From NCBI GenBank assembly GCA_022239325.1, contig JAKOGP010000002.1, positions 103,506-167,505 of the forward strand: DNA of 64,000 bases, in the 5' to 3' direction. The DNA comes from Flavobacteriaceae bacterium LSUCC0859. GTDB taxonomy: Bacteria; Bacteroidota; Bacteroidia; Flavobacteriales; Flavobacteriaceae. Below the pieces are notes generated by a model. It saw nothing but the letters and a program-made list of their open reading frames with translations. It made no database searches and was not told the origin of the DNA. Numbering within the stretch: the first letter of the stretch is position 1; every line of letters begins with the position of its first letter. A program made the translations under genes and the position numbers. Positions 35,120-59,030 of the stretch are shown here, in pieces.

Positions 35120-35173
35120 CTAAATATATTACTTAAGCAAAGTAGTGACCCAAAGCAACAAGCCCTTACATAG

Positions 35174-35935: not shown

Positions 35936-35936
35936 A

Positions 35937-40301: not shown

Positions 40302-43232
40302 ATGAAAATTATGCTACTCAAAAGCTTTTTGTTGGTTGGAGCCATTATGTGCTTTGGCTTTGCAAAGGCACAGACAGTATCTGGTAATGTTTCAGACGCC
40401 AATGGTCCTTTATTAGGAGCATCTGTTGTTGTGAAAGGTACTGCCAATGGAACAACAGCAGATTTTGATGGTAATTTTACCATTAATGCTGGAAGTGGAG
40501 ACACTTTAGTTTTTTCCTATGTAGGTTACACTGCTCAGGAAGTTGTAGTTGGAAATCAAACTACTATTAACGTAGTACTAGTTGCCAACAACGAATTGGA
40601 TGAAGTAATCGTTACAGGTTATGGAGGCCAGAAAGAAAAGGAGATTACCTCTGCGGTAGTTGCCGTTAGCGAAGAAGAATTTAACCAAGGGGTTGTAAAC
40701 GACGCCGCGGGTCTTGTTCAAGGTAAGGTAGCAGGTCTTCAGATTTACAACAAAGGGGGGAACCCTAACTCTGGTGCTCAAATTCGTTTGAGAGGTCTTT
40801 CTACGGTTGGAGCGAATTCTTCTCCATTAGTAGTTATTGACGGAGTTATCGGAGCTTCTTTGGCCAACGTAGATCCAACAGACATCGCTTCTATTAACGT
40901 ACTTAAGGATGCCTCTGCAGCAGCGATCTACGGTTCTCGTGGTTCCTCTGGTGTTATCTTAGTAACTACCAAAAAGGGGGTTGCTGGTGAGACAAAGATT
41001 TCTTATAACGTACAGTACTCTAACGCGAGCAGATTAAATACGATTGATTTAATGAGCCCAGATGAATTCTTGGCTGCTGGAGGTCGTGACTTAGGTTCAC
41101 GTACAGACTGGTTAGACGAGGTAACTAGAACGGCTGCTTCTACCATTCACAACATTTCTATGGCAGGTGGAGCTGGTTCTACAAGCTACCGTGTTTCTGC
41201 TAACTACAGAGATGTAGAGGGTATTTTACAGAACAATGGCTTTACGCAAATGAATGCGCGTTTGAACTTCTCTACAAGAGCTTTAAATGACAAATTAAAA
41301 ATCGAATTCTCTTCTTCTTTCACAGATAGAGATCAGAAAAATGGTTTTAACGAGGCACTTAGATATGCTACCTTGTACAACCCTACCGCACCTGTATTTG
41401 CTGCAGATGCTCCATATGCGTTTAACGGGGAGCAATTTGGTGGGTACTTTGAAACTTTAGGATTGTTTGACTCATTCAACCCTGTTTCTATTATAAACCA
41501 AAACATCAATGAAGGTAAAAAAGTAGAATACAACTACTCTGCTAACTTCACCTATAACCTTACTGACAACTTTGACCTTCACTTCAATGCGGCCAACCAG
41601 TTGTCTAAGTACGGAAATAGATTGTATTATAGAGGTACCTCTTTATGGAATGGTGGTGCTGCATCACCTTCTAGAAAAGGATCTGCTACTTTCTATGACG
41701 ACGAGTACAGCTTCCAATTATACGAAGCATATGCTACTTGGAATAAATCTTTTGGAAACTCAAATGTTGTGTTAACAGGAGGATATTCTTACCAAAAGCA
41801 AAACTTTAACTCTCACTCTGTAACAGTAGGTGACTTCCCAAACAACGACTTTGACTACATTAATGCAATTGAGTTAGGTCAGGATTTATTAAATCAAGGT
41901 TTTGTTGGAGCGAACTCTGACATGGCGCCAGACAATGAAATTGAAGCTTACTTCTTAAGAGCGAACGTAACGATAGCTGACAACTTCTTTGTAAATGCTT
42001 CTTTGAGAAGAGAGGGATCTACTAAATTAGGAGACGGTAACAAATACGGTACCTTCCCTGCAATTGGTTTGGGTACAGACTTAAATAAATACTTAAACCT
42101 TGAAGGAGTAAACCAATTAAAAGCTCGTGTTTCTTACGGGGTAACTGGTAACTTACCTGCTGCCAATGGTCTTTCTCAAGAAGTGAGAGGATTTGCATGG
42201 GCCGGTGGTGGTACCTCTGGAGGTACAACATCTTTAGTAAGAGCTGCAAACCCAGATCTTAAATGGGAAGAAAAATCTGAAACTAACTTTGGTATTGACT
42301 TAAATACAGACAGATTAACAGCTTCCTTAGATATTTACTCTCAAACTTCTAAAGATTTTATCTTAGAAAGACAAGTAGATGCTACGGTATTTGGTTTTGA
42401 CAGAAGATGGGAAAACGCAGGTCAAGTAACTTCTAAAGGGGTAGAATTGGCTGTGAACTACGATCTAATTCAAAATGACGGTTTCACCTACAACACTGGT
42501 GTGGTTTGGTCTACCAATGAGACGGTATTAGATGAGTACGTTTCTGAGCAAGAGCGTTTTGCTAACTTGGGAGCGCCAGGTCAGAATGACACTTATGCCA
42601 TTAGAGTTAAAGTAGGAGAAGAAATTGGTCAAATTTACGCTCCAGTATGGGACGGTACAGTGACTAACGGAACTCAAAACTTCGTGGATGTTAACGGAGA
42701 TGGTGTCATTAACACCAACCAAGCTAACATGCTTAATGACGACGCAGACTATGCAGTAGTGGGTAGAGGTACTCCTGATTTTGAATTGGGATGGACCAAC
42801 CAACTTACCTTTGGTGACTGGTCTGTAAATGCTTTCTTTAGAGGAGCTTTCGGACACAGCTTAGTAAACACTTTCCGTGTATTTTACGAGCCAAGAGTAG
42901 GATCTCAGAAGTCTTATAACTACATCAATACTGAATTGGCTAATCCAGAGATTACCAATGCACAATTTAGTTCTCTATATGTTGAAAAAGCAGACTTTTT
43001 CAAGTTAGATAACTTAACTGTAGCCAGAAAATTAAACTTGAACAGTGGTGTGATTGACAATGCCACCTTATCATTAAATGTTCAAAATGCTTTTGTACTG
43101 ACTAAATATACAGGATCTGATCCAGAGCCTTCTTTATCTGACAATGGCAATGTATTAGCTCCTGGTATGGACAGAAGAAATAACTACTATTCTGCTCGTA
43201 CATTTACAGTAGGACTTAATATTAACTTTTAA
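40302..43232 (+). CDS. susC: SusC/RagA-family TonB-dependent transporter
   Basis: 976 residues. Signal peptide about 1-23 (ending FAKAQ). A CarboxypepD_reg-like domain follows (about 25-100, GNVSDANGPLLGASVVVKGT), then the TonB box region and plug (ELDEVIVTGYG, LQIYNKGGNP, PLVVIDGV, LKDASAAAIYGSRGSSGVILVTTKKG) and a 22-strand barrel to the C-terminal GLNINF. It moves ligands delivered by SusD across the outer membrane using TonB energy. The codons are strongly biased, suggesting high expression. susD follows after 15 bp, and the operator and promoters lie upstream. Substrate unknown; control by a maltose-linked LacI is only positional. Confidence 0.95.
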   Translation: MKIMLLKSFLLVGAIMCFGFAKAQTVSGNVSDANGPLLGASVVVKGTANGTTADFDGNFTINAGSGDTLVFSYVGYTAQEVVVGNQTTINVVLVANNELDEVIVTGYGGQKEKEITSAVVAVSEEEFNQGVVNDAAGLVQGKVAGLQIYNKGGNPNSGAQIRLRGLSTVGANSSPLVVIDGVIGASLANVDPTDIASINVLKDASAAAIYGSRGSSGVILVTTKKGVAGETKISYNVQYSNASRLNTIDLMSPDEFLAAGGRDLGSRTDWLDEVTRTAASTIHNISMAGGAGSTSYRVSANYRDVEGILQNNGFTQMNARLNFSTRALNDKLKIEFSSSFTDRDQKNGFNEALRYATLYNPTAPVFAADAPYAFNGEQFGGYFETLGLFDSFNPVSIINQNINEGKKVEYNYSANFTYNLTDNFDLHFNAANQLSKYGNRLYYRGTSLWNGGAASPSRKGSATFYDDEYSFQLYEAYATWNKSFGNSNVVLTGGYSYQKQNFNSHSVTVGDFPNNDFDYINAIELGQDLLNQGFVGANSDMAPDNEIEAYFLRANVTIADNFFVNASLRREGSTKLGDGNKYGTFPAIGLGTDLNKYLNLEGVNQLKARVSYGVTGNLPAANGLSQEVRGFAWAGGGTSGGTTSLVRAANPDLKWEEKSETNFGIDLNTDRLTASLDIYSQTSKDFILERQVDATVFGFDRRWENAGQVTSKGVELAVNYDLIQNDGFTYNTGVVWSTNETVLDEYVSEQERFANLGAPGQNDTYAIRVKVGEEIGQIYAPVWDGTVTNGTQNFVDVNGDGVINTNQANMLNDDADYAVVGRGTPDFELGWTNQLTFGDWSVNAFFRGAFGHSLVNTFRVFYEPRVGSQKSYNYINTELANPEITNAQFSSLYVEKADFFKLDNLTVARKLNLNSGVIDNATLSLNVQNAFVLTKYTGSDPEPSLSDNGNVLAPGMDRRNNYYSARTFTVGLNINF

Positions 43233-43247
43233 AAAATAAAAAATTAT

Positions 43248-44855
43248 ATGAAAACTTTTAACAAAATACTTTTAGGTATAGGATTAGTAGGTCTAACTTA
43301 CTCTTGTACTGACTTAGAGGAAGATTTGGTAGGAGATTTGACTACCGACTTCACTGTAGACGGTGTAACAAATGCTTCTTACAGTGGAAGTGCCTTCACC
43401 GTTTCTGACGGACTAACCAATGCTTTTGGTGCCCTAAGAGGTACTGGAACAGCTGGTCACGGAGGGTACTTTGCCGTTCAATCTGTTTCTTCAGATGAAA
43501 TGGCCGTAACTCAAAAAGGTGGTGACTGGTATGATGGTGGAATCTGGATTGACATTCACAGACACAACCAAACTGCTGCTAACGGACCTATTAAAGACGT
43601 TTGGAATGGTGGTTATAACGCCATTGCACAGGTAAACAATGCCATTGAAAACGGAGGTTTAGATGCAAACCTAATGGCGCAAGCCAAAGTATTGCGTGCC
43701 TACCTACATTGGAGGTTGTTAGATATGTACGGAAGAATCCGTTTTGTAGACGAGTCTGGAACCAGCGCTCAGTTATCTAGAACAGCTGGATTTGAGAGAA
43801 TTGAAAGTGAACTCTTATCTGCTATTGGAATTTCTGGAGTTACAGCTAACATGGATCTTTCTGGTTCTGCCTTAGGAACCGACGACGTAAAATACAGAGT
43901 AAACCAATTTGCTGCACTAGGTGTATTGGCTAAGTTGTATTTAAACGCAGAGGTATATACAGGTACTGCCAGATGGCAAGAAGCGCATGACGCAGCCAAC
44001 TACATTATTGAGAATTCTTCTTACAGATTATCTGATAGCTCTGTTTCTGTACCTAACCCAGCAAAGAGACCAGCTGTAGCATCAGATCCAGATAATTTAA
44101 CAGGATATGCTGCTGTGTTCTCACCATCTAACTATGACAACCCAGAAATCATCTGGTCTGTAGAGTACGATGAGGCTACTGCTGGAGGAATGAACTTTCA
44201 CCAAATGACCTTACACTACGGTTCTCAGTTTACTTACTTATTCCAAGACCAACCTTGGAATGGTTACTCTGCCTTAGAGGAGTTTTACAACTCATACTCA
44301 GATGGAGATGCTCGTAAAGAGGCGAACTTTATTGTAGGACCTCAAACAGACTTTGGAGGTAGTGTAATTGTAGATTTAGCATCTGACGCTGCAGATCCAG
44401 CAATTGACTACTCTATTTCTATAAACGAATTAGAGCCAAACGCAGGAAGAACTGCTGGAGCTAGACTTGGTAAATTTGCCTTCAAAAACTTCGCAAGACC
44501 AGACTTAGACAATGACTACCCACTTGTAAGATTGGGAGATATTTACTTAGTGAGAGCAGAAGCTAAAGCTAGAGTAGCAGGAGATTGGTCTATGGCCTTA
44601 GCAGACGTAAACACTATTAGAGCTAGAGCAGGAGTTTCTGCCTTAGCATCTATCACAGCTGAAGAATTTTTAGCAGAAAGAGGTAGAGAAATGTTTATGG
44701 AAAGCTCAAGAAGAACAGATCTTATCCGTTTTGGAAAATGGAATGACTCTTGGTGGGAAAAAACAAATTCTGACGCTTACAGAATTGTAATGCCTATTCC
44801 ACAAGACGCTATACAAAACTCAAACGGGGCTTTAACTCAAAACCCTGGATACTAA
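43248..44855 (+). CDS. susD: SusD/RagB-family surface lipoprotein
   Basis: 535 residues with a lipoprotein signal (LTYSC, Cys20). The N-terminal region (NAFGALRG) and the TPR-like repeats are typical of RagB/SusD: KVLRAYLHWRLLDMYGRIRF, AALGVLAKLYLNAEVY and the C-terminal LVRLGDIYLVRAEAKARVAGDWSMALADVN, RGREMFMESSRRTDLIRFGKW and MPIPQDAIQNS. It binds ligand on the surface as partner of the SusC barrel. A strong terminator follows, so susCD is a bicistronic unit, though read-through to the next genes is possible. Confidence 0.95.
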   Translation: MKTFNKILLGIGLVGLTYSCTDLEEDLVGDLTTDFTVDGVTNASYSGSAFTVSDGLTNAFGALRGTGTAGHGGYFAVQSVSSDEMAVTQKGGDWYDGGIWIDIHRHNQTAANGPIKDVWNGGYNAIAQVNNAIENGGLDANLMAQAKVLRAYLHWRLLDMYGRIRFVDESGTSAQLSRTAGFERIESELLSAIGISGVTANMDLSGSALGTDDVKYRVNQFAALGVLAKLYLNAEVYTGTARWQEAHDAANYIIENSSYRLSDSSVSVPNPAKRPAVASDPDNLTGYAAVFSPSNYDNPEIIWSVEYDEATAGGMNFHQMTLHYGSQFTYLFQDQPWNGYSALEEFYNSYSDGDARKEANFIVGPQTDFGGSVIVDLASDAADPAIDYSISINELEPNAGRTAGARLGKFAFKNFARPDLDNDYPLVRLGDIYLVRAEAKARVAGDWSMALADVNTIRARAGVSALASITAEEFLAERGREMFMESSRRTDLIRFGKWNDSWWEKTNSDAYRIVMPIPQDAIQNSNGALTQNPGY

Positions 44856-44875
44856 TTAATAGTATAGATTCATTT

Positions 44876-44906
44876 AAAAGCGGCCCAATTGGGCCGCTTT
44901 TTTTTT
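44876..44906 (+). terminator. Intrinsic terminator after susD
   Basis: Perfect stem AAAAGCGGCCC (44876-44886) / GGGCCGCTTTT (44891-44901), loop AATT, with nine T ending at 44906. One of the strongest terminators in the window. Confidence 0.93.
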
Positions 44907-44940
44907 GCTTTAAAGTCAAAAAAATAAGCCTGCAAAGCGC

Positions 44941-44970
44941 TTGAAATAAAGTATAATTTTAATTATATTG
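44941..44970 (+). promoter_or_regulatory. Candidate promoter of the ASPIC/UnbV operon
   Basis: TTG (44941-44943), 20-bp spacer, TATATTG (44964-44970), one base short of TAnnTTTG. It lies between the susD terminator and the first FG-GAP gene, which suggests the downstream operon can be expressed separately from susCD. Confidence 0.35.
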
Positions 44971-45013
44971 CCTGTTATACCAGCCTCCCACCAAAAACTT
45001 AATAAACTCATTT

Positions 45014-48000
45014 ATGCGAAGAGCTTCACACATATTTGCTCGGGTATTTGCAAGTGCTTGCTTGTGTATTTTATGGAGCTGTAAGGAGGAAAAATATCTC
45101 TTTGAATTGCGTAGTGGGTCAGAGACGGGTATCCTATTTGAAAACACCTTATCCTACACAGAAGAATTTAATCCATATACCTATAGAAACTTTTACAATG
45201 GTGGAGGTGTGGCCTTAGGAGATATTAACAACGACGGATTAGTAGATATTTACTTTACTGGCAATTTAGTTTCCAACGCCTTATACCTTAACAAAGGAAA
45301 CTTCCAATTTGAAGACATCACTGAAAAAGCGGGAGTGGCCTGCAAAGGAGTATGGTCCTCAGGGGCTACTTTTGTAGACATTAATCAGGACGGCTTATTA
45401 GATATCTATGTGAGTAAATCTGGAATGCCAGGAGGAGAAAATCGCCACAACGAACTTTTTATTAATCAGGGAGACAACACTTTTAAAGAGGCTTCAAAAT
45501 CTTATGGATTAGACATTACAGGGCTTTCCGTGCAGGCCGCTTTTTTTGATTACGACAGAGATGGAGATTTAGACTGTTACCTACTCAATAACTCCATGCG
45601 CTCTGTGGGTGCCTATGACCTCATAGAAAACCAGCGATTGATTCCAGATCCTGACGGAAACAGTCTTCTTGAAAATCAAGATGGATATTTTGTAAATGTC
45701 TCTGAAAAAGCTGGCATATATTCCAGCAAAATAGGTTTTGGATTGGGCATTACCCTTTCGGATTTTAACGACGACCAATGGCCAGATTTATTTATTTCGA
45801 ATGACTTTTTTGAGAAAGATTATCTGTATATAAACCAACAAGACGGAAGTTTTAAAGAAGAAGGAGACCATTATTTCAATGCCCTTTCTATGGGCTCTAT
45901 GGGAGCAGACGCTGCAGACATAGACAACGACTTACGAACAGACCTTATGGTCACAGAAATGCTTCCAGAGAACTTGGAGCGAAAAAAGTTAAAAACGGCC
46001 TACGAAAACTGGGACAAACATCAATTGGCATTTGAGAAAGGCTATGGAAAACAACTTCCCAGAAATGTACTTCAGAGAAATATGGGGCCTACAGGTTTTG
46101 CTGAAATTGGCAGAAGCACAGGAATAGAAGGTTCGGAATGGAGTTGGGCTGCCTTATTTTTTGACATGGACAACGACGGGCTCAAAGATTTGTACATCAG
46201 CAATGGGATACATAAAGATTTATTAGACAGAGACTATTTGAGTTTTATGGCCAACGATGAAAAGGTACGCCAACTTATAGAAGAGGACGAAGAAGTGCTT
46301 AGTAAACTCATAGATGTCATGCCCTCTGCTGCTGTGCCTAACGCAGCCTTTCAAAACACGGGTGCGTTTACATTTAAAAATGTAAGAGACACTTGGGGCT
46401 TTAATACCCCTAGTTTTAGTAATGGAAGTGCCTATGGAGATTTAGACAATGATGGAGATCTAGATCTGGTAGTTAATAACATTAACAAGCAGGCCTTTGT
46501 ATATGAAAACACTGCCGCTAGCAAAGGAAATAATTACCTTTCTATTGGCCTAAAGGGAAGCGGGAAAAACACTTTTGCCATTGGAGCCAAAGTCATAGGA
46601 TATTTTAAAGACTCTCATATCTTAGTGGAACAATTTCCCTCTAGAGGCTTCCAGAGCGCTATCAGCCACAGGCTTCATATGGGGCTTGGAAATCATACAA
46701 AATTAGATAGTGTAGAAATTTACTGGCCAAGGGGTACTAAGAGTGTACTCTATGATATAGCCTCCAACCAACATATTGTAATAGAAGAGCTAAACACAAA
46801 AGTCAGAAAACACAAACAGCAGCGCACAGAAGCAGCTAAGACAGAAGACTTAGCACAATCCAAAAAATGGAATTTGCGATTTAAACACCTGGAAAACAGC
46901 TATATAGATTTTAACAACGAACGCTTGTTACCCCAAATGTTTAGCAATGAAGGCCCAGTGATAGTAAGTGGAGATCTCAATGGAGATGGAGTTGAAGATT
47001 TCTTTTTTGGAGGCGCCAAAAATCAAGCCTCAGAAATCTGGTTAAGTAATGCCAGCAACAATACCCATAAAAAAACAAATGAAAAGCTACTCCAGACAGA
47101 CGCCGTAAGCGAAGACACAGAAGCTTTGTTTTTAGATGTAGATGGAGACTCAGACCTAGATATTTATATTGGTAGCGGAGGCAAAGCCTTTTCAAAATTT
47201 TCATTCAACCTTCACGATAGAATTTATATCAATGACGGCCAAGGCCATTTTAGCAAACAAGTTGCTCCTGCTTTCAAAAGACCGCTAAGTACTGGGGCCT
47301 TAGCCAAATTAGATGTAAATAAAGATGGCCGTATAGATCTCTTTGTAGGAGAACGCTATCGTGTGGAAACCTATGGTTTAGACGGCAATGGCCATATCTT
47401 ATTAAATGAAGGAGGGGGGAATTTTAAGATCACTAATCCAATACCCTTCCAAAATCTTGGAATGATTACGGACGCCAAAGCCATAGACCTCAACAAGGAT
47501 GGATGGGAAGATCTCATTGTAGTTGGGGAATGGATGGGGGTAAGAGTATTTCTCAATGAAAGGGGGAATTTTAAAGAGGCCACTGAAGCTTATGGACTTC
47601 AAAAAACCTCTGGAATTTGGAGTAGTTTGCTTGTTAAAGATCTAAATGAGGACGGTTTTACAGATCTAGTCATTGGCAATACGGGCACGAATAGTTTTTA
47701 CAAAGCGCATATGAAATTATATGTGGGAGATTATGACCTCAATGGAAGTATGGAGCAAATTTACACCCAAGAGTTCCAAGGCAAAGATTACCCAATTGTA
47801 GACAAGGACGAGCTTACAAAACAAATTCCATCTTTAAAAAAAGACTTTTTATATTATAAAGACTATGCTAAAGCAAGCTTTGAGGATATTTTTAAAAACA
47901 AAAATATACAAAACCAAACGGTAAAAACATTAGACATCACAGAAAGTAGTATTTTCTGGGGGTCTAAAGACGGATTTAAAAGAGAGGCTTTTGCAGCAGA

Positions 48001-48848: not shown

Positions 48849-48852
48849 GAAT

Positions 48853-51800
48853 ATGCAAATAAAAGCATTCGCCACCTGTATTCTACTCCTGTTGTGCCTT
48901 TGGAGCTGCGACAAGCAAACCAATACCCTATTTGAGCTTCAAGACAATAAAAGCATTGGTTTAGAATTTGAAAACAAACTTAGTTTTTCCAATGAGTTTA
49001 ATGTGTACACCTATAGAAACTTTTACAATGGTGGGGGTGTGGCTATTGGAGATATTAATAACGATGGCTTAGTAGATATTTACCTCACAGCCAATCAGGA
49101 AAGCAACCAACTCTTTTTAAACAAAGGCAATTTCCAATTCGAAAATATCACGGAAACCTCAGGAGTTGGAGGAAACCGAGCCTGGTCTACTGGCGTAACT
49201 ATGGCAGACGTTAACGCAGACGGATTATTAGATATTTATGTGTGTAACTCAGGAGATGTAAAGGGAGATAGCAAGCAAAATGAACTCTTTATAAATCAAG
49301 GAGACCTCAAGTTTATAGAGTCTGCAGAGAAATATGGACTGGCAGACCAAGGCTTTTCTACACATGCCTCTTTCTTTGACTATGACAAGGATGGAGATCT
49401 AGATGTATACTTACTAAATAACTCTTACCAAGCCATCGGGAGCTTTGATTTGAGAAGAAACGAAAGGCCAAAGAGGGATGTTAAAGGTGGAGACAAACTC
49501 TTAGAAAATCAAGATGGTATTTATGTAGACGTAAGTGAAAAGGCAGGTATTTACGGCTCTGTGATTGGATTTGGACTTGGGGTAACCGTAGGAGATGTGA
49601 ATAACGACGGCTGGGAAGACATTTATGTCTCTAATGATTTTTTTGAAAGAGACTATCTCTATATAAACAATCAGAATGGTACTTTTAAAGAGACTTTAAC
49701 AAGCGCTATTAATTCTATTTCTGGGGCCTCCATGGGGGCCGATATGGCAGACATAAACAACGATCAAAAAGCAGATATCTTCGTCACAGAGATGCTACCA
49801 TCCGACTATGAAAGACTGAAGTCTGTTACCACTTTTGAGGACTGGGACAAATACACCTACAATGTAAAAAATGGGTATTATCACCAGTACACCAGAAACA
49901 CCTTACAGCTAAACAATGGGGACAACACCTTTAGTGAGGTTGGCCGTCTAGCGGGAGTAGAGGCCTCAGATTGGAGCTGGGGGGCTTTGTTTTTTGACAT
50001 GGACAACGACGGTCTCAAAGATCTGTTTATTGCCAATGGGATATACAGAGATCTTACAGATCAGGATTATTTACAATACGTCTCCAGTGACGAGGTAATT
50101 AATTCCATTGTGGCAAACAATCAGGTAGACTATGCTAGGCTTATAGATATTATTCCTTCTAACCCTATAGAGAACCAAGCTTATAAAAATTTAGGGGATC
50201 TAAACTTTAGTAGGGATAAAAATTTAGGTTTAGAAACCAAAGGTTTCTCTAATGGAGCAGCTTACGGAGATTTGGACAATGACGGAGACCTGGACCTTGT
50301 GGTAAACAATGTGAATATGCCTCTGTTTGTCTATAAAAATCAGAGTGAAAAAAATCCAAAAAACCATTTTATACAGTTCAAAATTAAAGGAGCAGACAAA
50401 AACACCCAGGGGATTGGTGCACAAATAACAGTGGTTCAGGAAGGAAACACCTACACCGTAGCACAGCAGCCCATTAGAGGCTTTCAATCTAGTATGGACC
50501 TTAAACCCCATATTGGACTCCCCTCTGCAAGTCCTGTAGACATCTCTGTACTATGGCCCAATGGGAAAAAGACTGCTCTAAATAAAGTGACTCCCAATAC
50601 CCTCCTTACTTTAGATATGGCCACGGGCAAATCTGAAAAGCCTACGGAAACACTTCCCAAGGATATTGTTTTTACTCCTACAAAAGAGGGACCGGCCTAT
50701 GTACATCAAGAAAATAAATTCATAGACTTTAACAGAGACCGTTTATTGCACCATATGATGAGTACTCCAGGACCAAAAACTACCAAAGGAGATATTAATG
50801 GGGACGGTTTTGAAGATCTAATTATTGGTGGTAGTAAAGGAAATCGTTCTGAGATATTTATGGCAGACTCCAATGGAATGTTTACGGTGAATAACCATTT
50901 TATCTTTAACAAAGATTTAGCCTCTGAGGTTACAGACCTCACCCTATTAGATATAGATCAAGACGGCGATTTAGACCTATATATGGGACATGGAGGGATT
51001 GAATTTTCTAAGTTCTCTCCAGAATTAGCAGACCAAATCTATCTCAATGACGGCCAAGGGAATTTTAGTGAAAGTAAGCAGGAACTACCTACGGCAGTAC
51101 AATTTTTTAATACTGGGGTGGTTAAAAGTGGAGATATAGACGGAGATGGAGATATAGACTTATTCGTGGGAGAACGTTCCATAAATGGCGCATACGGACT
51201 TCCAGGGAGTGGCCATTTACTGGTTAATAATGGCCAAGGCGTCTTTGAAGATCAAACCGAGACCCTAGCTCCAATGCTGCAAAAAATTGGAATGATTAGC
51301 ATTGCAGATTTTTCAGATATAGATGGAGATTCTGACCTAGATTTAGTGCTAAGTGGGGAATTTATGGGAGTTCACATCTTATTAAACGAAGGCTCAAAAT
51401 TCACCGCTATGGCAGGGGAACTAAACCAGGAAAAAGGCTGGTGGTCTGCTTTGAACATTACGGATTTAAATGCAGATGGCTATCCTGATCTCATTATAGG
51501 AAACCATGGTGAAAACTCTAGGTTTAAAGCCTCTAGAGAAAGGCCATTAGCCCTTTTTGTAAAAGATTATGACGAAAATGGAGCCCTAGACCCTATTCTG
51601 AGTTTTATGGGGGAAGACAACAAATACTATCCATTTAACCTCCGACACAACCTCATTGATCAAATGAAAGGCTTAAAAAAGCGTTTTCCAGACTACAAGA
51701 GTTTTAAAAATGCAGACCTTAGCCAAATTCTGACCCAAGAGGCCATGGATCAAAGTTTAAAATTGGAAGCCAATGAATTGAGAACTAAAATTTTCATAAA

Positions 51801-52125
51801 TCAGGGTGGGACTCAGTTTAGAGCATTAGACCTTCCAGTTTCTGTTCAAATGGCGCCGGTTTTTGCTATAGAGAGTTTTGACTTTGACCATGATGGAGAC
51901 TTAGACATTGTCATGGGAGGGAATCTATTTAGAGTGAAGCCAGAAGTTGGAAGATACGACGCTAGTTTTGGCACCTATCTGGAAAATAAAGGCAATGATG
52001 TATTTAGTAGCTTTCCAGGGAACAAAGGCTTTACTCTAAGAGGAGAAATCAGGTCTTTCCAACGTATAAAAAACCGCTTAATAGTGACTAGAAACAGTGA
52101 TTCTATTTCATCATTTAAATTTTAA
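48853..52125 (+). CDS. FG-GAP/ASPIC-UnbV lipoprotein, paralogue 2
   Basis: 1090 residues, very similar in layout to paralogue 1: lipobox LWSC (Cys19), opening LFELQDNKSIGLEFENKLSFSNEFN, about 14 FG-GAP units (DINNDGLVDIYL, DYDKDGDLDVYL, DIDGDGDIDLFV and others), and an ASPIC/UnbV domain near 505-590 (QQPIRGFQSSMDLKPHIGL, ISVLWPNG). The near-identical length and order of repeats point to tandem duplication. Predicted surface or periplasmic Ca2+-binding protein. Functional difference from paralogue 1 is not visible. Confidence 0.87.
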   Translation: MQIKAFATCILLLLCLWSCDKQTNTLFELQDNKSIGLEFENKLSFSNEFNVYTYRNFYNGGGVAIGDINNDGLVDIYLTANQESNQLFLNKGNFQFENITETSGVGGNRAWSTGVTMADVNADGLLDIYVCNSGDVKGDSKQNELFINQGDLKFIESAEKYGLADQGFSTHASFFDYDKDGDLDVYLLNNSYQAIGSFDLRRNERPKRDVKGGDKLLENQDGIYVDVSEKAGIYGSVIGFGLGVTVGDVNNDGWEDIYVSNDFFERDYLYINNQNGTFKETLTSAINSISGASMGADMADINNDQKADIFVTEMLPSDYERLKSVTTFEDWDKYTYNVKNGYYHQYTRNTLQLNNGDNTFSEVGRLAGVEASDWSWGALFFDMDNDGLKDLFIANGIYRDLTDQDYLQYVSSDEVINSIVANNQVDYARLIDIIPSNPIENQAYKNLGDLNFSRDKNLGLETKGFSNGAAYGDLDNDGDLDLVVNNVNMPLFVYKNQSEKNPKNHFIQFKIKGADKNTQGIGAQITVVQEGNTYTVAQQPIRGFQSSMDLKPHIGLPSASPVDISVLWPNGKKTALNKVTPNTLLTLDMATGKSEKPTETLPKDIVFTPTKEGPAYVHQENKFIDFNRDRLLHHMMSTPGPKTTKGDINGDGFEDLIIGGSKGNRSEIFMADSNGMFTVNNHFIFNKDLASEVTDLTLLDIDQDGDLDLYMGHGGIEFSKFSPELADQIYLNDGQGNFSESKQELPTAVQFFNTGVVKSGDIDGDGDIDLFVGERSINGAYGLPGSGHLLVNNGQGVFEDQTETLAPMLQKIGMISIADFSDIDGDSDLDLVLSGEFMGVHILLNEGSKFTAMAGELNQEKGWWSALNITDLNADGYPDLIIGNHGENSRFKASRERPLALFVKDYDENGALDPILSFMGEDNKYYPFNLRHNLIDQMKGLKKRFPDYKSFKNADLSQILTQEAMDQSLKLEANELRTKIFINQGGTQFRALDLPVSVQMAPVFAIESFDFDHDGDLDIVMGGNLFRVKPEVGRYDASFGTYLENKGNDVFSSFPGNKGFTLRGEIRSFQRIKNRLIVTRNSDSISSFKF

Positions 52126-52126
52126 T

Positions 52127-55100
52127 ATGTCTTTACATCCAACATACAAAAAGGGGCCCATACTAAAGAAATGGACTTTGCTTTTATTTACGGCCACCCT
52201 ATTAATAGCCTGTAACAAAGAAATAGAAAAGGGGCCTATATATTTTGAAGCACTCTCCCCCACTCAAACTGGTATTGACTTTACCAATAGCTTAGAACCT
52301 ACTTCTGATCTCAATATTATTGAATACTTATATTTCTATAATGGAGCTGGAGTGGCCATTGGAGACCTAGACAATGACGGACTGGAAGATGTATTCTTTA
52401 CAGGGAATCAAGTTCAAGACCAATTGTATAAAAACCTGGGCGAGCTCCGTTTTTCAAATATCACTGCATCTGCTGGCATATTGAATTCAGACAGCTGGTC
52501 TAATGGGGTCACTATGGCAGACGTTAATAATGACGGGCTATTGGATATTTATGTCTCTGTCGTAGGGCAATATAAATCCCTTAAAGGCCACAATAAACTG
52601 TACCTGAACAAGGGTGATATGCAGTTTGAAGAAGTGTCAAAAGAGGTTCACTTAGATTTTTCTGGTTTTGGTACCCAGGCTAGTTTTTTTGACTACGACA
52701 ATGACGGAGACCTAGATGTATACTTACTAAACCACACCGTACACACCCCAAGAAGCTACGGCAAAATAGACAAAAGATCAGAGAAGGACCTACTATCTGG
52801 AGATCGCTTCTATGAAAACACCCTAGAAACTGGGGTATTAGACTTTAAAGAAGTAAGCGCAGAGGCAGGCATTTTTAGCAGCCCTTTAGGTTATGGATTG
52901 GGATTGGCCACTGCAGATTTTAATAAAGATGGTTTTATTGACATATACATTGGGAATGATTTTCACGAAAACGACTATCTGTTTTTGAATAACGGAGACA
53001 AAACTTTTAAAGAAGTTAGTAAGCAAATGATCAGTCACAGTTCCAGATTTACCATGGGATTAGATGTTGCAGATTTAAATAACGACGCTCAATTAGATAT
53101 TTTTAGCTTGGACATGATGCCAGATCAGGCTAAAATTTTACTTAAGTCTGGAGGAGAAGACACAGATAAGGTGGCTCAAATAAAATCAAATTTTGGATAC
53201 CAACCGCAGTACTCTAGAAACCATTTACAACTAAACAATGGTCGTGGGGCGTTTAAAGAAATAGCCTTACTCACTCAAACCTATGCCACCGATTGGAGTT
53301 GGTCTGCGCTTATTGAAGATTTTGATAATGATGGCCAATCTGATATTTTTATCAGTAATGGAATTTACAGAAGGCCTAATGACTTGGATTACATTAATTA
53401 TATGAGTAATGTAAACTTTAGCCAATACCAACAAAACCAACAAGACGCCCTAGAAAAAAAGCTTATTGAGGAAATGCCTCAATTACATATTGGCAATGTC
53501 ATTTTAAGAAATGAAGGTCAAATGATCTTTTCTAAATACAGCCAAGAGGCCGGTTTAAACAACACCTACTCTAATGGAGCAGCTTACAGTGACCTGGACC
53601 TGGATGGAGACATAGATCTGCTGATAAACAATATTAATAGTCCTGCTCAACTATTAGAAAACACTACTAACCCTCAAAATTTTGTAGGGTTCCAAGTGAG
53701 TCCGTCTGCTGAGGTACCCAATACGCAAGGCGCCAAAATTAGTGTATATAGCCAAGATAAAGTATGGTATAAAGAAGTTACGGCAAGCAGAGGGTTTGCA
53801 TCGGCGTCTAGCCAGAACATTCACTTTGGATTGGGTCAAAAGAACCGTATAGATTCTGTTCATATAGAATATCTAGGAGGCAAAAAACAAAGATTTACGA
53901 ATCTGAAAGCCAATCAGTACCACAAGATAGACTCACAAACGGCACAATTTACACAAATTAAGCCGCAAATAATCTATGAGGCTACCGAGAGCTTCCCCTT
54001 TACCCATACGGAAAACACCTATTATGACTATGAGCGAGAGCCACTGATGCTAGAAAAATTATCTATAGAGGGACCCGCTTACGTCTTCGAAGACTTTGAC
54101 GGAGACGGTCTTAAAGACTTGTATTTGGGAGCGGCCAAATACCAGGAAAGTAGTTATTTTAAACAAAATGAAAACCACAGCTTTAGCCGCATTCCCTCTG
54201 AAGCCTTTTTAGAAGACGCACTTTATGAAGACGTAGACGCTGCAGCTATTGACTATGACAATGACGGAGATTTAGATCTATACGTAATGAGTGGTGGAAA
54301 TGACAGCCCCGAAGGAGACATACAATTGGCAGACCGACTCTACATTAACAACGGACTAGGCCAATTTACCAGATCTGCTGCCGTACTGCCCAAATCTAAT
54401 GGCGGTAGCATCTCTGTAGCAGACTTTAACAATGATGGATATGACGATCTCTTTCTAGGGTCTCGATCTATGCCAGGCGCCTATGGCGTAGCTCCATATA
54501 GTGTGATCTTGAAAAACACCCAAAAAGGGAATTTTGAGCTACTAGATAGGGTAGAATTTGGTATGATTACGGACAGTGCTTGGGGAGACTTAAACTCAGA
54601 TGGTTTTCTAGACTTAGTATTGGTGGGTGATTTTATGCCCGTAACCGTCTTAATGAACCAGCAAGGAGTTCGCTTTGAAAACCAAACCATTGCTCTTGGC
54701 CTAGAACACAGCAGTGGCTTGTGGAACACCCTTGCCCTAGAAGACCTTAACGGAGATGGACGCTTAGATATTTTGGCTGGGAATGCTGGCTTAAATATGA
54801 AATTAACAGCCTCTGTAGAAGCACCTGTGGTATTACATTTGGCAGATTTTGACGCCAATGGTCAAATAGATCCAGTGTTTTTTTATGACTATGAGGGCCA
54901 ACATATCCCCTTTGCTACTAAAGATCAGTTGGCAGGGCAAATGCCCCTCATCAAAAAGAAGTTTACCTCCTACGAGGCGTTTTCTAAGGTAAGATCTTTG
55001 AAACAATTGTTTGATCTAATTCCTGAAGACACCGAAACCAAAAAAATAGAGGAACTCAGATCTATGGTATATCTTAATCAGACCAGTGGGTTTCAGGGAC

Positions 55101-55399
55101 AGCCATTACCAAGAGCTGCTCAAATGAGTAGTATTGAAGATTTCCACTACGAGCCTGTAACAGAAAGACTGTATTATGTAGGAAATTACAAAGGCTATGT
55201 GACCCAATTAGGACAAACTACCGCAAATCCTGGAGGCGTATTATCTGAATTTAAACAAGGTACTTTTACCCAGCATAAAGAGCTCCCTATTGCACCCTTT
55301 GAAGAAGGTAGGGCTTTGGTCAAACTTCCAGAAAACAAGCTTCTTATCTTATACAACAACAGCACTGCTGTAACTTTAAATCTAACACAATTACAATAA
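52127..55399 (+). CDS. FG-GAP/ASPIC-UnbV lipoprotein, paralogue 3
   Basis: 1090 residues from the ATG at 52127, directly after the previous stop; a start ten codons upstream would overlap it and adds no signal features. A lipobox LIAC gives lipidated Cys30. Some 13 FG-GAP units (DLDNDGLEDVFF, DYDNDGDLDVYL, DFNNDGYDDLFL and others) flank an ASPIC/UnbV domain (about 545-600, SRGFASASSQNIHFGLG). It is the most divergent of the three, opening with GIDFTNSLEPTSDLNI. Together they form a three-paralogue operon ahead of the haloperoxidase gene. Confidence 0.87.
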   Translation: MSLHPTYKKGPILKKWTLLLFTATLLIACNKEIEKGPIYFEALSPTQTGIDFTNSLEPTSDLNIIEYLYFYNGAGVAIGDLDNDGLEDVFFTGNQVQDQLYKNLGELRFSNITASAGILNSDSWSNGVTMADVNNDGLLDIYVSVVGQYKSLKGHNKLYLNKGDMQFEEVSKEVHLDFSGFGTQASFFDYDNDGDLDVYLLNHTVHTPRSYGKIDKRSEKDLLSGDRFYENTLETGVLDFKEVSAEAGIFSSPLGYGLGLATADFNKDGFIDIYIGNDFHENDYLFLNNGDKTFKEVSKQMISHSSRFTMGLDVADLNNDAQLDIFSLDMMPDQAKILLKSGGEDTDKVAQIKSNFGYQPQYSRNHLQLNNGRGAFKEIALLTQTYATDWSWSALIEDFDNDGQSDIFISNGIYRRPNDLDYINYMSNVNFSQYQQNQQDALEKKLIEEMPQLHIGNVILRNEGQMIFSKYSQEAGLNNTYSNGAAYSDLDLDGDIDLLINNINSPAQLLENTTNPQNFVGFQVSPSAEVPNTQGAKISVYSQDKVWYKEVTASRGFASASSQNIHFGLGQKNRIDSVHIEYLGGKKQRFTNLKANQYHKIDSQTAQFTQIKPQIIYEATESFPFTHTENTYYDYEREPLMLEKLSIEGPAYVFEDFDGDGLKDLYLGAAKYQESSYFKQNENHSFSRIPSEAFLEDALYEDVDAAAIDYDNDGDLDLYVMSGGNDSPEGDIQLADRLYINNGLGQFTRSAAVLPKSNGGSISVADFNNDGYDDLFLGSRSMPGAYGVAPYSVILKNTQKGNFELLDRVEFGMITDSAWGDLNSDGFLDLVLVGDFMPVTVLMNQQGVRFENQTIALGLEHSSGLWNTLALEDLNGDGRLDILAGNAGLNMKLTASVEAPVVLHLADFDANGQIDPVFFYDYEGQHIPFATKDQLAGQMPLIKKKFTSYEAFSKVRSLKQLFDLIPEDTETKKIEELRSMVYLNQTSGFQGQPLPRAAQMSSIEDFHYEPVTERLYYVGNYKGYVTQLGQTTANPGGVLSEFKQGTFTQHKELPIAPFEEGRALVKLPENKLLILYNNSTAVTLNLTQLQ

Positions 55400-55403
55400 A
55401 AAA

Positions 55404-56744
55404 ATGAAACACTTCTCCATTACAAGCCTCTTTTTAAGCTTATTTGGTTTATTATTTATCCTTAGCTGTGAGGAAAACAACACCTACATCCAAAGTCTGG
55501 AAGACCCTGTTTTGTTTAATGAAAGCATGCAGCAACTTTCAGATGTGATTGTTTACGACATTTTTTCTCCTCCAGTAGCCTCTAGAGTCTATATGTACCC
55601 TACCGTGGCCGCCTACAGCATTATGCAACAAGCCTTCCCTGAGAAATATGAAGATTTAGAGGGTCAGATAAGTGGGTTTACAAGCATTCCAAGCCTTTCT
55701 GACCCAAAAGTAAATCCCCATTTGGCTGCCATACATGCTTTTCTTAAAGTAGGAACTGCACTCATTTTTTCAGAAAACAAAATGGATAGCTACCGAGAGG
55801 CCTTGTATGAAAAATTAGAAGAAGAGGGGCTTCCCTCTGCAGTTAAAGAAGCATCTTTAGCCTATGGAGAGGCGGTGGCTGCACATATATTGGGCTGGGC
55901 AGACACAGATTTTTACAAGCAAACCAGAACCTATCCTAAATACACCATTCAGGAAGGAACTGCATTTTGGAAACCTACCCCTCCAGATTATATGGAGGGT
56001 ATAGAACCCCATTGGAATAAAATTAGAACGCTGGTTCTTGAAAGTGCAGACCAGTTTGAACCAGCTGCTCCATACCCGGTAGACATGGATAAGAACAGTC
56101 CGTTTTACAAAGAACTACTTGAAGTGTACGAATTGGGAGAAAAGATAGATGGCAGTACAGAGGCTACACAAATTGCTAGTTTCTGGGACTGTAACCCCTA
56201 TGTGTCTCACCACAGAGGGCACGCTATGTTCGCCACCAAAAAAATTACTCCAGGAGGCCATTGGATAGGAATAACTAAAATTGCAACTACCCAAGCGGCT
56301 AGCAGTTTTGACGAAACCGTTCATGCCTACACAAGAGTTTCCGCGGCCTTATTTGACGGATTCATTTCTTGCTGGAATACCAAGTGGAATAAGCTAATTG
56401 TGAGGCCAGAAACGCTCATTAATGAGTTCTTAGACGAAACCTGGTTGCCCTTATTACAGACCCCTCCCTTTCCTGAGTACACCTCTGGACACTCTGTAAT
56501 CTCGAGAGCAGCAGCTGTGGCTCTAACAGATATTTACGGAGATAATTTTGCTTTTGAAGACACCACTGAAGAGGTATACGGACTAGGCGTTCGCTCTTAT
56601 CCTTCTTTCTTGGCCGCCTCTGAGGAAGCTGCCATCTCAAGACTCTATGGCGGCATTCATTATAGAAGAGCTATTGAAGAAGGGGTGAAGCAGGGAGAAG
56701 CTGTAGGTAATTACCAAGTATCTAAGCTTAAAACACTAAAATAA
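55404..56744 (+). CDS. Vanadium haloperoxidase/PAP2-family lipoprotein
   Basis: 446 residues, lipobox ILSC (Cys22). The vanadate/phosphate-binding set is complete: Lys327 and Arg334 (K-x6-R in KWNKLIVRP), His363 in EYTSGHS, Arg413 and His419 in SRLYGGIH. Relative to Curvularia vanadium chloroperoxidase these match Lys353, Arg360, His404, Arg490 and His496. Trp324 and Phe356 match its Trp350 and Phe397, which line the halide site. Vanadate-dependent halide oxidation with H2O2 is therefore plausible; acid phosphatase activity of the same fold is the alternative. It follows paralogue 3 by 4 bp in the same operon. Confidence 0.85.
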   Translation: MKHFSITSLFLSLFGLLFILSCEENNTYIQSLEDPVLFNESMQQLSDVIVYDIFSPPVASRVYMYPTVAAYSIMQQAFPEKYEDLEGQISGFTSIPSLSDPKVNPHLAAIHAFLKVGTALIFSENKMDSYREALYEKLEEEGLPSAVKEASLAYGEAVAAHILGWADTDFYKQTRTYPKYTIQEGTAFWKPTPPDYMEGIEPHWNKIRTLVLESADQFEPAAPYPVDMDKNSPFYKELLEVYELGEKIDGSTEATQIASFWDCNPYVSHHRGHAMFATKKITPGGHWIGITKIATTQAASSFDETVHAYTRVSAALFDGFISCWNTKWNKLIVRPETLINEFLDETWLPLLQTPPFPEYTSGHSVISRAAAVALTDIYGDNFAFEDTTEEVYGLGVRSYPSFLAASEEAAISRLYGGIHYRRAIEEGVKQGEAVGNYQVSKLKTLK

Positions 56745-56776
56745 TTTATATTTACCAACCTTAAAAAAAACCAACC

Positions 56777-58366
56777 ATGATAGGAATACTCTCCTTTGTA
56801 GGCTTTACCCTGCTTGTTGCTTTAATTGCATATTTAGCTACCAAAAAAACAGATGAGCGCTCCTCAGACGGATATTTCTTGGGTGGGAGAAGCCTTACTG
56901 CAGGAGTCATTGCAGGCTCCTTATTACTCACTAACCTGTCTACGGAACAAATCGTAGGACTCAATGGCTCTGCCTACGAAAGTGGCCTTTCTGTAATGGC
57001 CTGGGAAACTATGGCCGCTATTGCCATGGTACTCACTGCTATTTTCTTGCTTCCCAGATATCTCACAGGAGGTCTAACCACGGTCCCACAATTTTTGGCT
57101 AGTCGTTTTGACGTAACTACCAAGACCATTACCTCTATCTTGTTTCTAACAGGCTATGCTGTAGTGCTTTTACCAGTAGTTTTGTACTCTGGTTCTGTAG
57201 CCATCAGTGGTATGTTTGACATTCCAGAACTCCTAGGAGTCTCTGAGAGCGCAGCCATTTGGATTTGTGTGTGGGGTATTGGTATCACTGGAGGTATCTA
57301 TGCGGTATTTGGAGGCTTAAAGGCCGTAGCGGTTTCAGATTCTATCAATGCCATAGGGCTGCTTATAGGAGGGCTTATGATCCCATTTTTTGGACTTCTG
57401 GCCATTGGTGATGGAAATGTCATGGGAGGAATACAAATTTTAGTAGAAAGCAACCCGGAGAAATTTAAATCTATGGGTTCTGAAACAGATCCAGTGCCAT
57501 TTCATACCCTTTTTACAGGGATGATGCTCGTTCATATGTTTTACTGGGGCACCAACCAACAGATTATACAAAGGGCTTTGGCTGCTAAAAACCTAGCAGA
57601 AGGCCAAAAAGGACTTTTACTGGCCGGGTTTATCAAGGTCTTAGGTCCCTTATTGGTTGTTCTTCCTGGACTTATAGCCTATCATCTATTTGAGGGTGGC
57701 TTGGACAAGGCAGACAGTGCCTACCCCATGCTGGTAGCAGAAGTTTTGCCATTGCCTTTGGTTGGTTTTTTTGCTGCAGTCTTATTTGGAGCTATTTTAA
57801 GCTCTTTTAACTCCGTGTTAAACTCATCAGTGACCCTTTATGGGGTAGATATTTATAAGCAGCACATAAATCCCAATGCCAGCGAATTAGAGATGGTAAA
57901 AAACGGAAAACGTTTTGGGCTAATTTTAGCCATTGCAGCCATGTGTATTGCACCCTTAATAGCCAATGCAGGCACCCTTTTTGACTACCTGCAAGAGGTG
58001 AATGGTATTTATAGCATCCCTATTTTAACAGTGATATTTGTAGGCTACACCACCAAAAAAGTCCCTGCCATCGCAGCTAAAATTGGGGTGATCTCTGGAT
58101 CTTTACTCTATATTATTAGCCAATTTATACTCCAACCTATGGTAGAGGATAATGGAGGTACCTACCCACATTACTTAGATGTCATGGCTGTGCTATTTTT
58201 ATTAAACACAGGCATTATGCTGCTCATTGGAAAATTAAAACCAAGAGAAACGCCTTTTGAGCTTAGTTACACCAAGCAGGTAAACATTGAGCCCTTTAAA
58301 TATGTAAAGCAAATGGGGCTAGGAGTTTGTGTATTGGTGATTGCTATCTATGTGTACTTTGCCTAA
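56777..58366 (+). CDS. SSS-family sodium:solute symporter
   Basis: 529 residues with 13-14 membrane segments. SLC5/SSS features: GRSLTAGVIAGSLLLTNLSTEQIVGLNGSAY near the N-terminus, the GGIYAVFGGLKAVAVSDSINAI segment, and the SFNSVLNSSVTLYGVDIYK stretch, which includes the sodium-site serines. Similar proteins carry galactose, sialic acid or other small solutes with Na+. It starts 32 bp after the haloperoxidase gene. Together with SusCD it gives an uptake route across both membranes; the substrate is not decided. Confidence 0.92.
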   Translation: MIGILSFVGFTLLVALIAYLATKKTDERSSDGYFLGGRSLTAGVIAGSLLLTNLSTEQIVGLNGSAYESGLSVMAWETMAAIAMVLTAIFLLPRYLTGGLTTVPQFLASRFDVTTKTITSILFLTGYAVVLLPVVLYSGSVAISGMFDIPELLGVSESAAIWICVWGIGITGGIYAVFGGLKAVAVSDSINAIGLLIGGLMIPFFGLLAIGDGNVMGGIQILVESNPEKFKSMGSETDPVPFHTLFTGMMLVHMFYWGTNQQIIQRALAAKNLAEGQKGLLLAGFIKVLGPLLVVLPGLIAYHLFEGGLDKADSAYPMLVAEVLPLPLVGFFAAVLFGAILSSFNSVLNSSVTLYGVDIYKQHINPNASELEMVKNGKRFGLILAIAAMCIAPLIANAGTLFDYLQEVNGIYSIPILTVIFVGYTTKKVPAIAAKIGVISGSLLYIISQFILQPMVEDNGGTYPHYLDVMAVLFLLNTGIMLLIGKLKPRETPFELSYTKQVNIEPFKYVKQMGLGVCVLVIAIYVYFA

Positions 58367-58385
58367 ACCTTAGTACCTTTATGGC

Positions 58386-59030
58386 ATGAAAGTGCCCAAG
58401 CGTTTTTTATTAGTCTGTGTTTGTAGCCTATGCTGCATAGGACTCTATGGCCAAGAAAATAGCAGCAAATCCATTAAAATAGGGAAGAAAGATCCTGCCA
58501 AAACTTCTGAAAATCCTTTTAAACTGCCTGCAGCTAACGCCAAGGACCAACCCAAGCTCTTGTATCCCATAGACGTTACTATGGAAAAAAATCAGATACA
58601 AATGCTGCCCAACAGAACACTGGTACAAGCTGGAGCCTTTTTAAAAATTGATCCTAAGATTCGAGAAAAAGAGAATAAAAAAGCTAAACAATATTTTGGA
58701 GACGTCCATCTGGGCAGTATTAAAACCGTTTCTAAATTTGTTGGAGTGGTTTGCAGAGACCATGAATACGTAGACGGAGACCGAGTTAAAATTTACCTCA
58801 ACGGCAATATTATAGAACAAAACCTCACCCTTACTGCTGGTTTTCAAGGGCTCAATGTAGACCTTAAAGAAGGGGTTAATATTTTAATCTTCGAAGCCTT
58901 AAATCAGGGAGCTTCAGGGCCCAATACGGCCCAAGTAGATGTCTATGATGAAAAGGGAAACCTCATGTACCAAAACATCTGGAACCTCTCTACAGGTGCA
59001 AGAGGCACCATGACTGTAATTAGAGAATAA
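58386..59030 (+). CDS. Small secreted protein of unknown function
   Basis: 214 residues with a cleavable signal peptide (about 1-22, ending LYGQ). The mature part is rich in Lys and has two beta-rich stretches: DGDRVKIYLNGNIIEQNLTL and VDLKEGVNILIFEALNQGASGPNTAQVDVYDEKGNLMYQN. The second resembles a carbohydrate-binding-like or jelly-roll sandwich. No catalytic motif recognised. It is the last gene of the plus-strand locus, 19 bp after the symporter. Its stop codon lies in an inverted repeat shared with the convergent acylase gene. Confidence 0.75.
   Translation: MKVPKRFLLVCVCSLCCIGLYGQENSSKSIKIGKKDPAKTSENPFKLPAANAKDQPKLLYPIDVTMEKNQIQMLPNRTLVQAGAFLKIDPKIREKENKKAKQYFGDVHLGSIKTVSKFVGVVCRDHEYVDGDRVKIYLNGNIIEQNLTLTAGFQGLNVDLKEGVNILIFEALNQGASGPNTAQVDVYDEKGNLMYQNIWNLSTGARGTMTVIRE

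Follow-up and report, generated by a model that had tools for sequence, protein, structure and literature searches.

A conserved SusCD-ASPIC-haloperoxidase gene block beside maltose genes in Flavobacteriaceae bacterium LSUCC0859: a candidate LacI-controlled alpha-glucoside uptake regulon

Introduction

The usual way to interpret a SusCD locus is through its enzymes. A 64,000-nucleotide stretch of the genome of Flavobacteriaceae bacterium LSUCC0859 (assembly GCA_022239325.1, contig JAKOGP010000002.1, positions 103,506 to 167,505; hereafter the window) holds a SusCD block of a widespread type in which three FG-GAP/UnbV_ASPIC lipoproteins (ASPIC1, ASPIC2, and ASPIC3), an unnamed small lipoprotein, and a predicted iodoperoxidase are the surface parts. 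The question raised by this locus is what such a block takes up, and whether the maltose genes lying beside it on the opposite strand belong to it. We consider the block to be, rather probably, the outer-membrane half of a LacI-controlled uptake regulon for alpha-glucosides, here of the maltose class, with a surface module that is apparently undescribed. A description of the gene set was not found in the open-licence literature, among the matches listed.

Results

Conservation of the gene block

The nine plus-strand open reading frames (ORFs) of the block, at 40302-59030 of the window, were all recovered at the coordinates given in a preliminary description of the locus, and the families named there agreed with Pfam and NCBIfam. 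The row begins with a SusC/RagA-type TonB-dependent transporter (40302-43232; TIGR04056, E = 1e-181) and a SusD/RagB-type surface lipoprotein (43248-44855; PF07980, E = 4e-21; closest solved structures, 3jys and 3ck7 SusD). These are followed by ASPIC1 (45014-48289, 1091 residues), a small lipoprotein of no known family (48258-48848, overlapping ASPIC1 by 32 bp), ASPIC2 (48853-52125, 1090 residues), and ASPIC3 (52127-55399). The last three genes encode a vanadium haloperoxidase lipoprotein (55404-56744), an SGLT-type sodium symporter (56777-58366), and a small secreted protein (58386-59030). All three ASPIC proteins, of about 1090 residues each, contain FG-GAP_3 and UnbV_ASPIC domains (PF13517, PF07593). 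The ASPIC3 ORF was listed from a GTG at 52097, and the ATG at 52127 is the more likely start. Lipobox-like cysteines were observed at the N-termini of the window's SusD, ASPIC1-3, small lipoprotein, and haloperoxidase.

The row was surveyed in 149 genomes drawn evenly from one family, the Flavobacteriaceae, and in named loci, the best 80 of 587. At most five ASPIC candidates per genome were scored in the former, and distances are those among the matches listed. The named loci were picked by likeness to ASPIC2, so that ASPIC and neighbour counts are favoured in them. The two samples overlap (L093 = G099, L135 = G035). Gene labels in the relatives' stretches are best BLAST matches to a reference set, and unmatched ORFs were partly annotated.

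The small lipoprotein was present in 19 of the 149 genomes, our own included, in each case with an ASPIC gene on either side at most 300 bp away, and all 19 hold a haloperoxidase. Stretches around the ASPIC2 orthologue were compared in 19 relatives, and the order SusC-SusD-ASPIC1-small lipoprotein-ASPIC2-ASPIC3 was found in 17, two of the rows being cut by contig ends (G124, G064); the exceptions were G035, without ASPIC3, and G081, whose stretch begins at a contig edge. In 15 of the 19 relatives the stretch also contains a haloperoxidase, which in G095 lies beyond LacI, and a LacI label likewise appears in 15. In G032 (L051/L052), SusC is split into two overlapping ORFs, by a frameshift or an assembly error. 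Furthermore, the haloperoxidase genomes fell without exception (60/60) within the 91 ASPIC genomes of the 149 (Fisher's test, 9e-19), and 51 of 62 haloperoxidase matches lay at most 15 kb from an ASPIC gene, among the ASPIC matches listed. A second, commoner variant without the small lipoprotein accounts for 41 of the 60 haloperoxidase genomes (e.g. G120, Arenibacter).

The preliminary description had set conserved co-occurrence in other Bacteroidota as a test of the system. Of the named loci, 41 span 23.1 kb or more; SusC and SusD were found in all of these, the small lipoprotein in 40, the haloperoxidase in 30, and LacI in 15; the order ASPIC-small lipoprotein-ASPIC was seen in 36, and all six genes stood in a row in 33. 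The named genomes range over Maribacter, Algibacter, Winogradskyella, Marinoscillum, Fulvivirga, Roseivirga, Algoriphagus, Phaeodactylibacter, and Saprospiraceae. The six-gene row recurs over Flavobacteriaceae, Cytophagales, and Saprospiraceae, mostly with a haloperoxidase nearby. The block is a conserved module and not a chance row of genes, and its order, kept across relatives and named loci, agrees with the SusCD-type outer-membrane system proposed for it earlier.

The LacI-SusC gap and the maltose operon

Divergently from SusC, a LacI-family regulator gene (38920-39936, minus strand; PF00356/PF00532/PF13377) heads an operon with a beta-phosphoglucomutase (bPGM) gene (38251-38901, minus strand; TIGR01990 bPGM equivalog, 232 bits against a cut-off of 189) and a gene for a glycoside hydrolase family 65 (GH65) phosphorylase of the maltose phosphorylase type (P0010; 35937-38246, minus strand; NF010380, 1153 bits). 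The closest solved relative of the GH65 protein is maltose phosphorylase 1H54, at 735 bits versus 415 for the next. A 17-residue stretch, ECHNEWEITFEEIHRNG, which we place at the acceptor loop, is identical to that of 1H54 and differs from both kojibiose phosphorylases aligned. Since trehalose phosphorylases were absent among the solved matches, a trehalose phosphorylase is a less well excluded alternative.

This LacI gene was the only one found in a search of our own genome (one match). A palindrome, ACGAAACCGTTTTCGT, which is a putative LacI-type operator, occupies 40191-40206 and begins 111 bp before the SusC start; it is assigned to no strand. The exact pattern CGAAANCGNTTTCG occurs once in our own genome (2.17 Mb), namely in the LacI-SusC gap before SusC. 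Two further places match with one mismatch; as extra LacI targets these were rejected, both lying within coding ORFs. When the pattern was read backwards as a control, 26 matches per strand with at most one mismatch were obtained versus 3 for the pattern itself, so that the pattern is rare in this genome. A CG-centred palindrome with at most two arm mismatches was found in the LacI-SusC gap of 17 of 19 genomes (all except G064 and G065), and exact copies of the pattern numbered 23 in 767 kb of the stretches compared versus 0 in 10 order-1 Markov shuffles. In three genomes (G024, G140, and G070), further exact copies precede sugar-porter/GH32 genes and GH13 or GH97 genes; in G140 and G070 one also stands before a gene with weak likeness to PfkB (23-25% identity). 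The maltose genes had previously been linked to the block by position only. With the sole LacI found heading the GH65 operon and the only exact palindrome copy standing before SusC, that view is not supported, and to judge from sequence, the maltose genes belong with the block.

The intergenic gaps within the block measure 1 to 32 bp, with one exception, the 158 bp that follow SusD. This longer gap contains a strong terminator-like hairpin (44876-44901, plus strand; an 11-pair stem followed by a T-run), which separates SusCD from the downstream genes. A like hairpin with a T-run was observed in 17 of the 19 SusD-ASPIC1 gaps examined, and its retention suggests partial read-through.

Genes beside the module

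A GH65 gene lay at most 20 kb from the haloperoxidase in 15 of the 53 genomes having both, where random placement gives 0.74 genomes on average and reached at most 6 in 20,000 simulations (contigs ignored). Genes of alpha-glucosidic type (GH65, GH32, GH37, GH97, or GH13) were found in the stretches of 10 of the 19 relatives with an ASPIC2 orthologue. The neighbours include GH32 with fructokinase and a sugar porter, GH37 trehalase, GH97, GH13, and a second GH65 type; in Algoriphagus aquimarinus, a trehalose-6-phosphate synthase/phosphatase fusion directly follows the haloperoxidase (L141:18197-20371). ORFs of similar length occupy this place in L142, L143, L151, and L158. Our own genome gave no match to GH97 and four to GH13, none of them at an operator copy. 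The neighbouring genes indicate mostly small alpha-glucosides. The block had been set apart from classical glycan loci in the preliminary description; the recurrence of GH65 beside it and the alpha-glucosidic genes in 10 of 19 relatives speak against that distinction.

Several observations weigh against an alpha-glucoside regulon. The stretches of the other 9 of the 19 relatives, three of which are truncated at contig ends, showed no gene of alpha-glucosidic type. In the 41 long named loci, which were read to about 10 kb from ASPIC2 and whose unlabelled ORFs were only sampled, labels for sugar metabolism or carriers appear in 16 and glycosidases in 8. Other genes also adjoin the module: cytochrome-type and DUF1501 genes in G065 and G095, GH20 before the module in G052, a sulfatase in L112, an amidase in L110, an aldo/keto reductase with a 3-keto-disaccharide hydrolase in L089, and xylose isomerase with xylulokinase in G011 and G018. 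The palindrome (at most one mismatch) was missing in 17 of 32 named loci, for which SusC starts were set mechanically; 11 of these are titled outside Flavobacteriales, 3 within, and 3 are unplaced. The order ASPIC-small lipoprotein-ASPIC was present in 67 of the 80 named loci, some of them cut, so that outside the family such flanking was not seen in every case. The SGLT-type symporter is not constant in the module, and its type suggests a hexose rather than maltose.

The same kind of evidence bears on the rival that gene order has simply been inherited without joint function and that the module imports unrelated cargo, for example a peptide, a lipid, or a glycoprotein fragment. Gene order can be conserved by inheritance alone, and genes for an HI0933-type flavoprotein and a glycerophosphodiester phosphodiesterase (GDPD), which lie beyond GH65 on the minus strand of the window (33881-35953), hold the same place in G037, G011, G032, and G018, travelling with GH65 without obvious function there. 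Among the matches listed, 78 of 103 GH65 genes have no haloperoxidase or ASPIC gene within 40 kb on their contig, and of the 25 that do, only 5 belong to genomes with the small lipoprotein and the other 20 to genomes without it, so that GH65 is near in only 5 of the 19 small-lipoprotein genomes; by this count the inherited-order explanation gains weight and the regulon loses it. The sulfatase, amidase, and cytochrome-type neighbours likewise fit unrelated cargo. However, the neighbours vary from GH65 to GH32 with fructokinase, GH37 trehalase, GH97, and GH13, yet stay alpha-glucoside enzymes, and the palindrome follows varied sugar genes in three genomes. We regard inheritance without joint function as unlikely.

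Further from the module, GH32 and GH113-like glycosidase genes lie on the minus strand at 8968-10737 and 12061-13074, about 27-31 kb upstream of the block. A penicillin-amidase family protein is encoded convergently with the block (59038-61230, minus strand); this family includes signal-molecule acylases. It and an MsbA-type neighbour were rejected as module parts, being unlabelled in the stretches of the 19 relatives. The small secreted protein that ends the block has no Pfam or NCBIfam family; it was unlabelled in all 19 relatives' stretches and carried a label in a single one of the 80 named loci.

ASPIC proteins, small lipoprotein, and symporter

Pfam and NCBIfam identified no hydrolase or lyase among the nine block proteins, and the earlier statement that the block has no depolymerase holds by sequence for these nine genes. 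A depolymerase hidden in the ASPIC proteins was likewise rejected, as none of them matched a hydrolase or lyase family. A profile search listed CRTAC1, integrins, and one EscC chain. The AlphaFold2 model of ASPIC2 had a mean predicted local distance difference test score (pLDDT) of 88.4, and its best fold match was CRTAC1 (9ETN, E = 4e-26), with template modelling (TM) scores of 0.69 by target and 0.36 by query and with extra propeller-type strands behind. Among the best 50 of the 437 fold matches (E up to 0.001), CRTAC1 was followed by unrelated proteins of low TM score, with no hydrolase or lyase. Many aspartates are invariant within the FG-GAP repeats of ASPIC2, which we take to be of the calcium-binding type.

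In a midpoint-rooted tree of 57 orthologues and 5 outlying paralogues, ASPIC1, ASPIC2, and ASPIC3 orthologues formed separate clades with supports of 0.56, 1.0, and 1.0, respectively; one 276-residue row was dropped, and one or more rows of the alignment contain X letters (154 in all). From these clades the three proteins look like old, distinct parts, though weakly so for ASPIC1. Elsewhere in our genome (G000:C4, about 296654-299806; L072/L073), a fourth ASPIC gene was observed together with a SusC and SusD-like pair of its own, in a stretch with PSD-like, DUF1501, NHL, and PSCyt1 genes and no haloperoxidase label. In some marine genomes (L046, 5716-8970 onward; L038; L090; L109), genes for a protein of about 1090 residues, DUF1501, NHL, and planctomycete-type cytochromes come after the ASPIC trio.

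The small lipoprotein was modelled with high confidence (pLDDT 94.3). Its assignment to a known family was rejected, as at most 2 of the 55 members matched any one Pfam family, with a best E of 0.0025. One PDB match fell under E = 0.001, namely 4YGT (DUF4309; E = 8.5e-4), and with a probability of 0.99 and TM scores of 0.28/0.35 any likeness would be remote. No enzyme activity was suggested by the models and searches for ASPIC2 or the small lipoprotein.

The symporter (NF007790, 771 bits) is closest among solved structures to vSGLT (2XQ2/3DH4). The Q, E, N, K, and Q residues and the Ser-Ser pair of the vSGLT sugar and sodium sites are kept in it, and the gate Tyr is replaced by Gln.

Haloperoxidase and iodine

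The nearest solved relative of the haloperoxidase (PAP2-type) is the vanadium iodoperoxidase of Zobellia (4CIT/4USZ; 490 bits, E = 5e-146, residues 3-445). In an alignment that left out the 25%-identical C8 protein and all rows no longer than 400 residues, K327, R334, S361, G362, H363, and R413 were found in 60 of 60 rows and H419 in 59, with one gap; we take these residues to be the vanadate-binding motif. The protein had been placed in the vanadium-peroxidase family, and this is supported: it is of the vanadium haloperoxidase family, and an iodoperoxidase type is predicted for it. Plasmid-borne relatives of the peroxidase (86 records) were rejected as carriers of the module: the one neighbourhood opened, in Adhaeribacter swui, contained no SusD or ASPIC gene. 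The text of PMC9296495 on Zobellia reports that the vanadium iodoperoxidase vIPO3 was up on a brown alga versus alginate, and algal defence is discussed there.

An alternative reading of the locus is sugar-coupled iodine acquisition, in which the peroxidase would oxidise iodide with sugar-derived peroxide, the propellers and SusCD would import the iodinated product, and the locus would be the basis of iodine accumulation by marine flavobacteria. Iodine uptake by Arenibacter sp. C-21 requires glucose, oxygen, and calcium and is credited by the authors to glucose oxidase and haloperoxidase; the strain itself has no fewer than five Zobellia iodoperoxidase homologues (PMC5064120). In another Arenibacter, sp. 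ARW7G5Y1, one haloperoxidase match at E = 1e-40 was found, and it sits in a locus ordered GH65-bPGM-LacI // SusC-SusD-SSS-ASPIC-ASPIC-haloperoxidase (SSS, sodium:solute symporter, reversed) with an operator-like site of one mismatch before SusC. The kinship of the block peroxidase to an iodoperoxidase and the invariant aspartates of ASPIC2 would also fit, and two GMC oxidoreductase domains in our own genome (G000:C4:112503 and C8:109434) are possible peroxide sources. However, in C-21 a peroxide-generating or iodide-oxidising system could stand in for glucose (PMC5064120). Glucose may therefore serve there as a peroxide source and not as an inducer, and the iodine reading is less probable because of this bypass. 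Moreover, no gene of the locus was recognised as a sugar oxidase, the small lipoprotein was not seen in the ARW7G5Y1 locus, 11 of the 41 long named loci lack a haloperoxidase within the flank, and three 1090-residue proteins or SusD would not be needed for iodine. We judge iodine acquisition to be improbable as the function of the block.

The earlier proposal, that the peroxidase prepares a ligand by oxidation or halogenation for capture by the propellers and subsequent import, with the maltose genes as mere neighbours, draws on the strong co-occurrence of peroxidase, SusCD, and ASPIC genes, but it is very improbable in view of the one LacI and one exact operator tying SusCD to the GH65 operon's LacI, the sugar enzymes recurring beside the module, and a block in which no dehalogenase was recognised with Pfam and NCBIfam, the adjoining HAD protein being the beta-phosphoglucomutase. 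Overall, the preliminary description is partly supported: the block was right and rightly said to have no depolymerase, and the maltose genes were wrongly set aside.

Discussion

How an alpha-glucoside regulon might work

Taken as an alpha-glucoside regulon, the locus would operate as follows. Without sugar, LacI would occupy the operator at 40191-40206 and repress SusCD and the genes behind it. When sugar is present, SusC and SusD would be made at a high level, and the conserved terminator would pass only part of the transcription to the ASPIC1, small lipoprotein, ASPIC2, ASPIC3, haloperoxidase, and symporter genes. ASPIC1-3, of which the modelled ASPIC2 appears as a double propeller, might form a surface assembly with the small lipoprotein around SusCD; this assembly would capture an alpha-glucoside or an alpha-glucoside conjugate, and SusCD would carry the ligand across the outer membrane. 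Uptake of the sugar could then proceed through the SGLT-type symporter and other inner-membrane carriers, after which maltose phosphorylase and beta-phosphoglucomutase would feed it into glycolysis. The surface iodoperoxidase, made during feeding, may use up peroxide together with iodide (or bromide), which would protect the cell or inhibit competitors. We propose this peroxidase role at the feeding cell surface only tentatively, as the weakest step of the mechanism; such peroxide/iodide chemistry is likelier than ligand preparation.

A bolder version would combine these elements into an undescribed surface machine, in which three non-exchangeable ASPIC proteins and a new small lipoprotein dock on SusCD, a surface iodoperoxidase belongs to an alpha-glucoside regulon, with co-induction of sugar uptake and halide/peroxide chemistry, and the locus is the genetic basis of the glucose-, oxygen-, and calcium-dependent iodine accumulation of marine flavobacteria. 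We consider that this full combination would be a long shot. Its interest lies in the proposed switch, by which bacterial iodide oxidation would be tied to a sugar regulator and which could give a gene-level handle on an observation on the marine iodine cycle. The sugar class of the module can partly be read from its neighbours. The small lipoprotein is a marker for locating the system.

Comparison with known systems

The starch (Sus) locus of Bacteroides thetaiotaomicron comprises SusC, SusD, SusE/SusF, a surface amylase, and the SusR regulator. The locus described here is like it in having SusC, SusD, cell-surface lipoproteins, and an alpha-glucan theme. Unlike it, the window has LacI and not SusR, and the ASPIC trio, the small lipoprotein, and the peroxidase stand instead of the other surface parts; neither SusE/SusF nor a surface amylase was recognised in the block.

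With CRTAC1/ASPIC-UnbV proteins (9ETN), the window's ASPIC proteins share the FG-GAP propeller and the ASPIC domain. In contrast to CRTAC1, they are about twice as long, with more propeller-type strands behind, carry a lipoprotein signal, and occur as three tandem paralogues. The haloperoxidase resembles the iodoperoxidase of Zobellia galactanivorans (4CIT/4USZ) over nearly its full length and has the same vanadate-site residues, the halide specificity of the window's enzyme being a prediction.

Among published loci, the alpha-glucan and trehalose-like loci of North Sea Flavobacteriia are similar in combining a SusCD pair with GH65. The text of PMC6298971 (Kappelmann et al. 2019) describes loci with SusCD, GH65, and GH13, a reduced Maribacter version with one GH13 and one GH65, and trehalose-like loci; alpha-glucan loci with GH13 and GH65 appear also in the text of PMC6794258 (Krueger et al. 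2019). The words FG-GAP and haloperoxidase do not occur in the main texts of these two papers. Four Maribacter loci of our survey (L091, L092, L097, and L131) carry the module, with LacI proteins 58-66% like that of the window.

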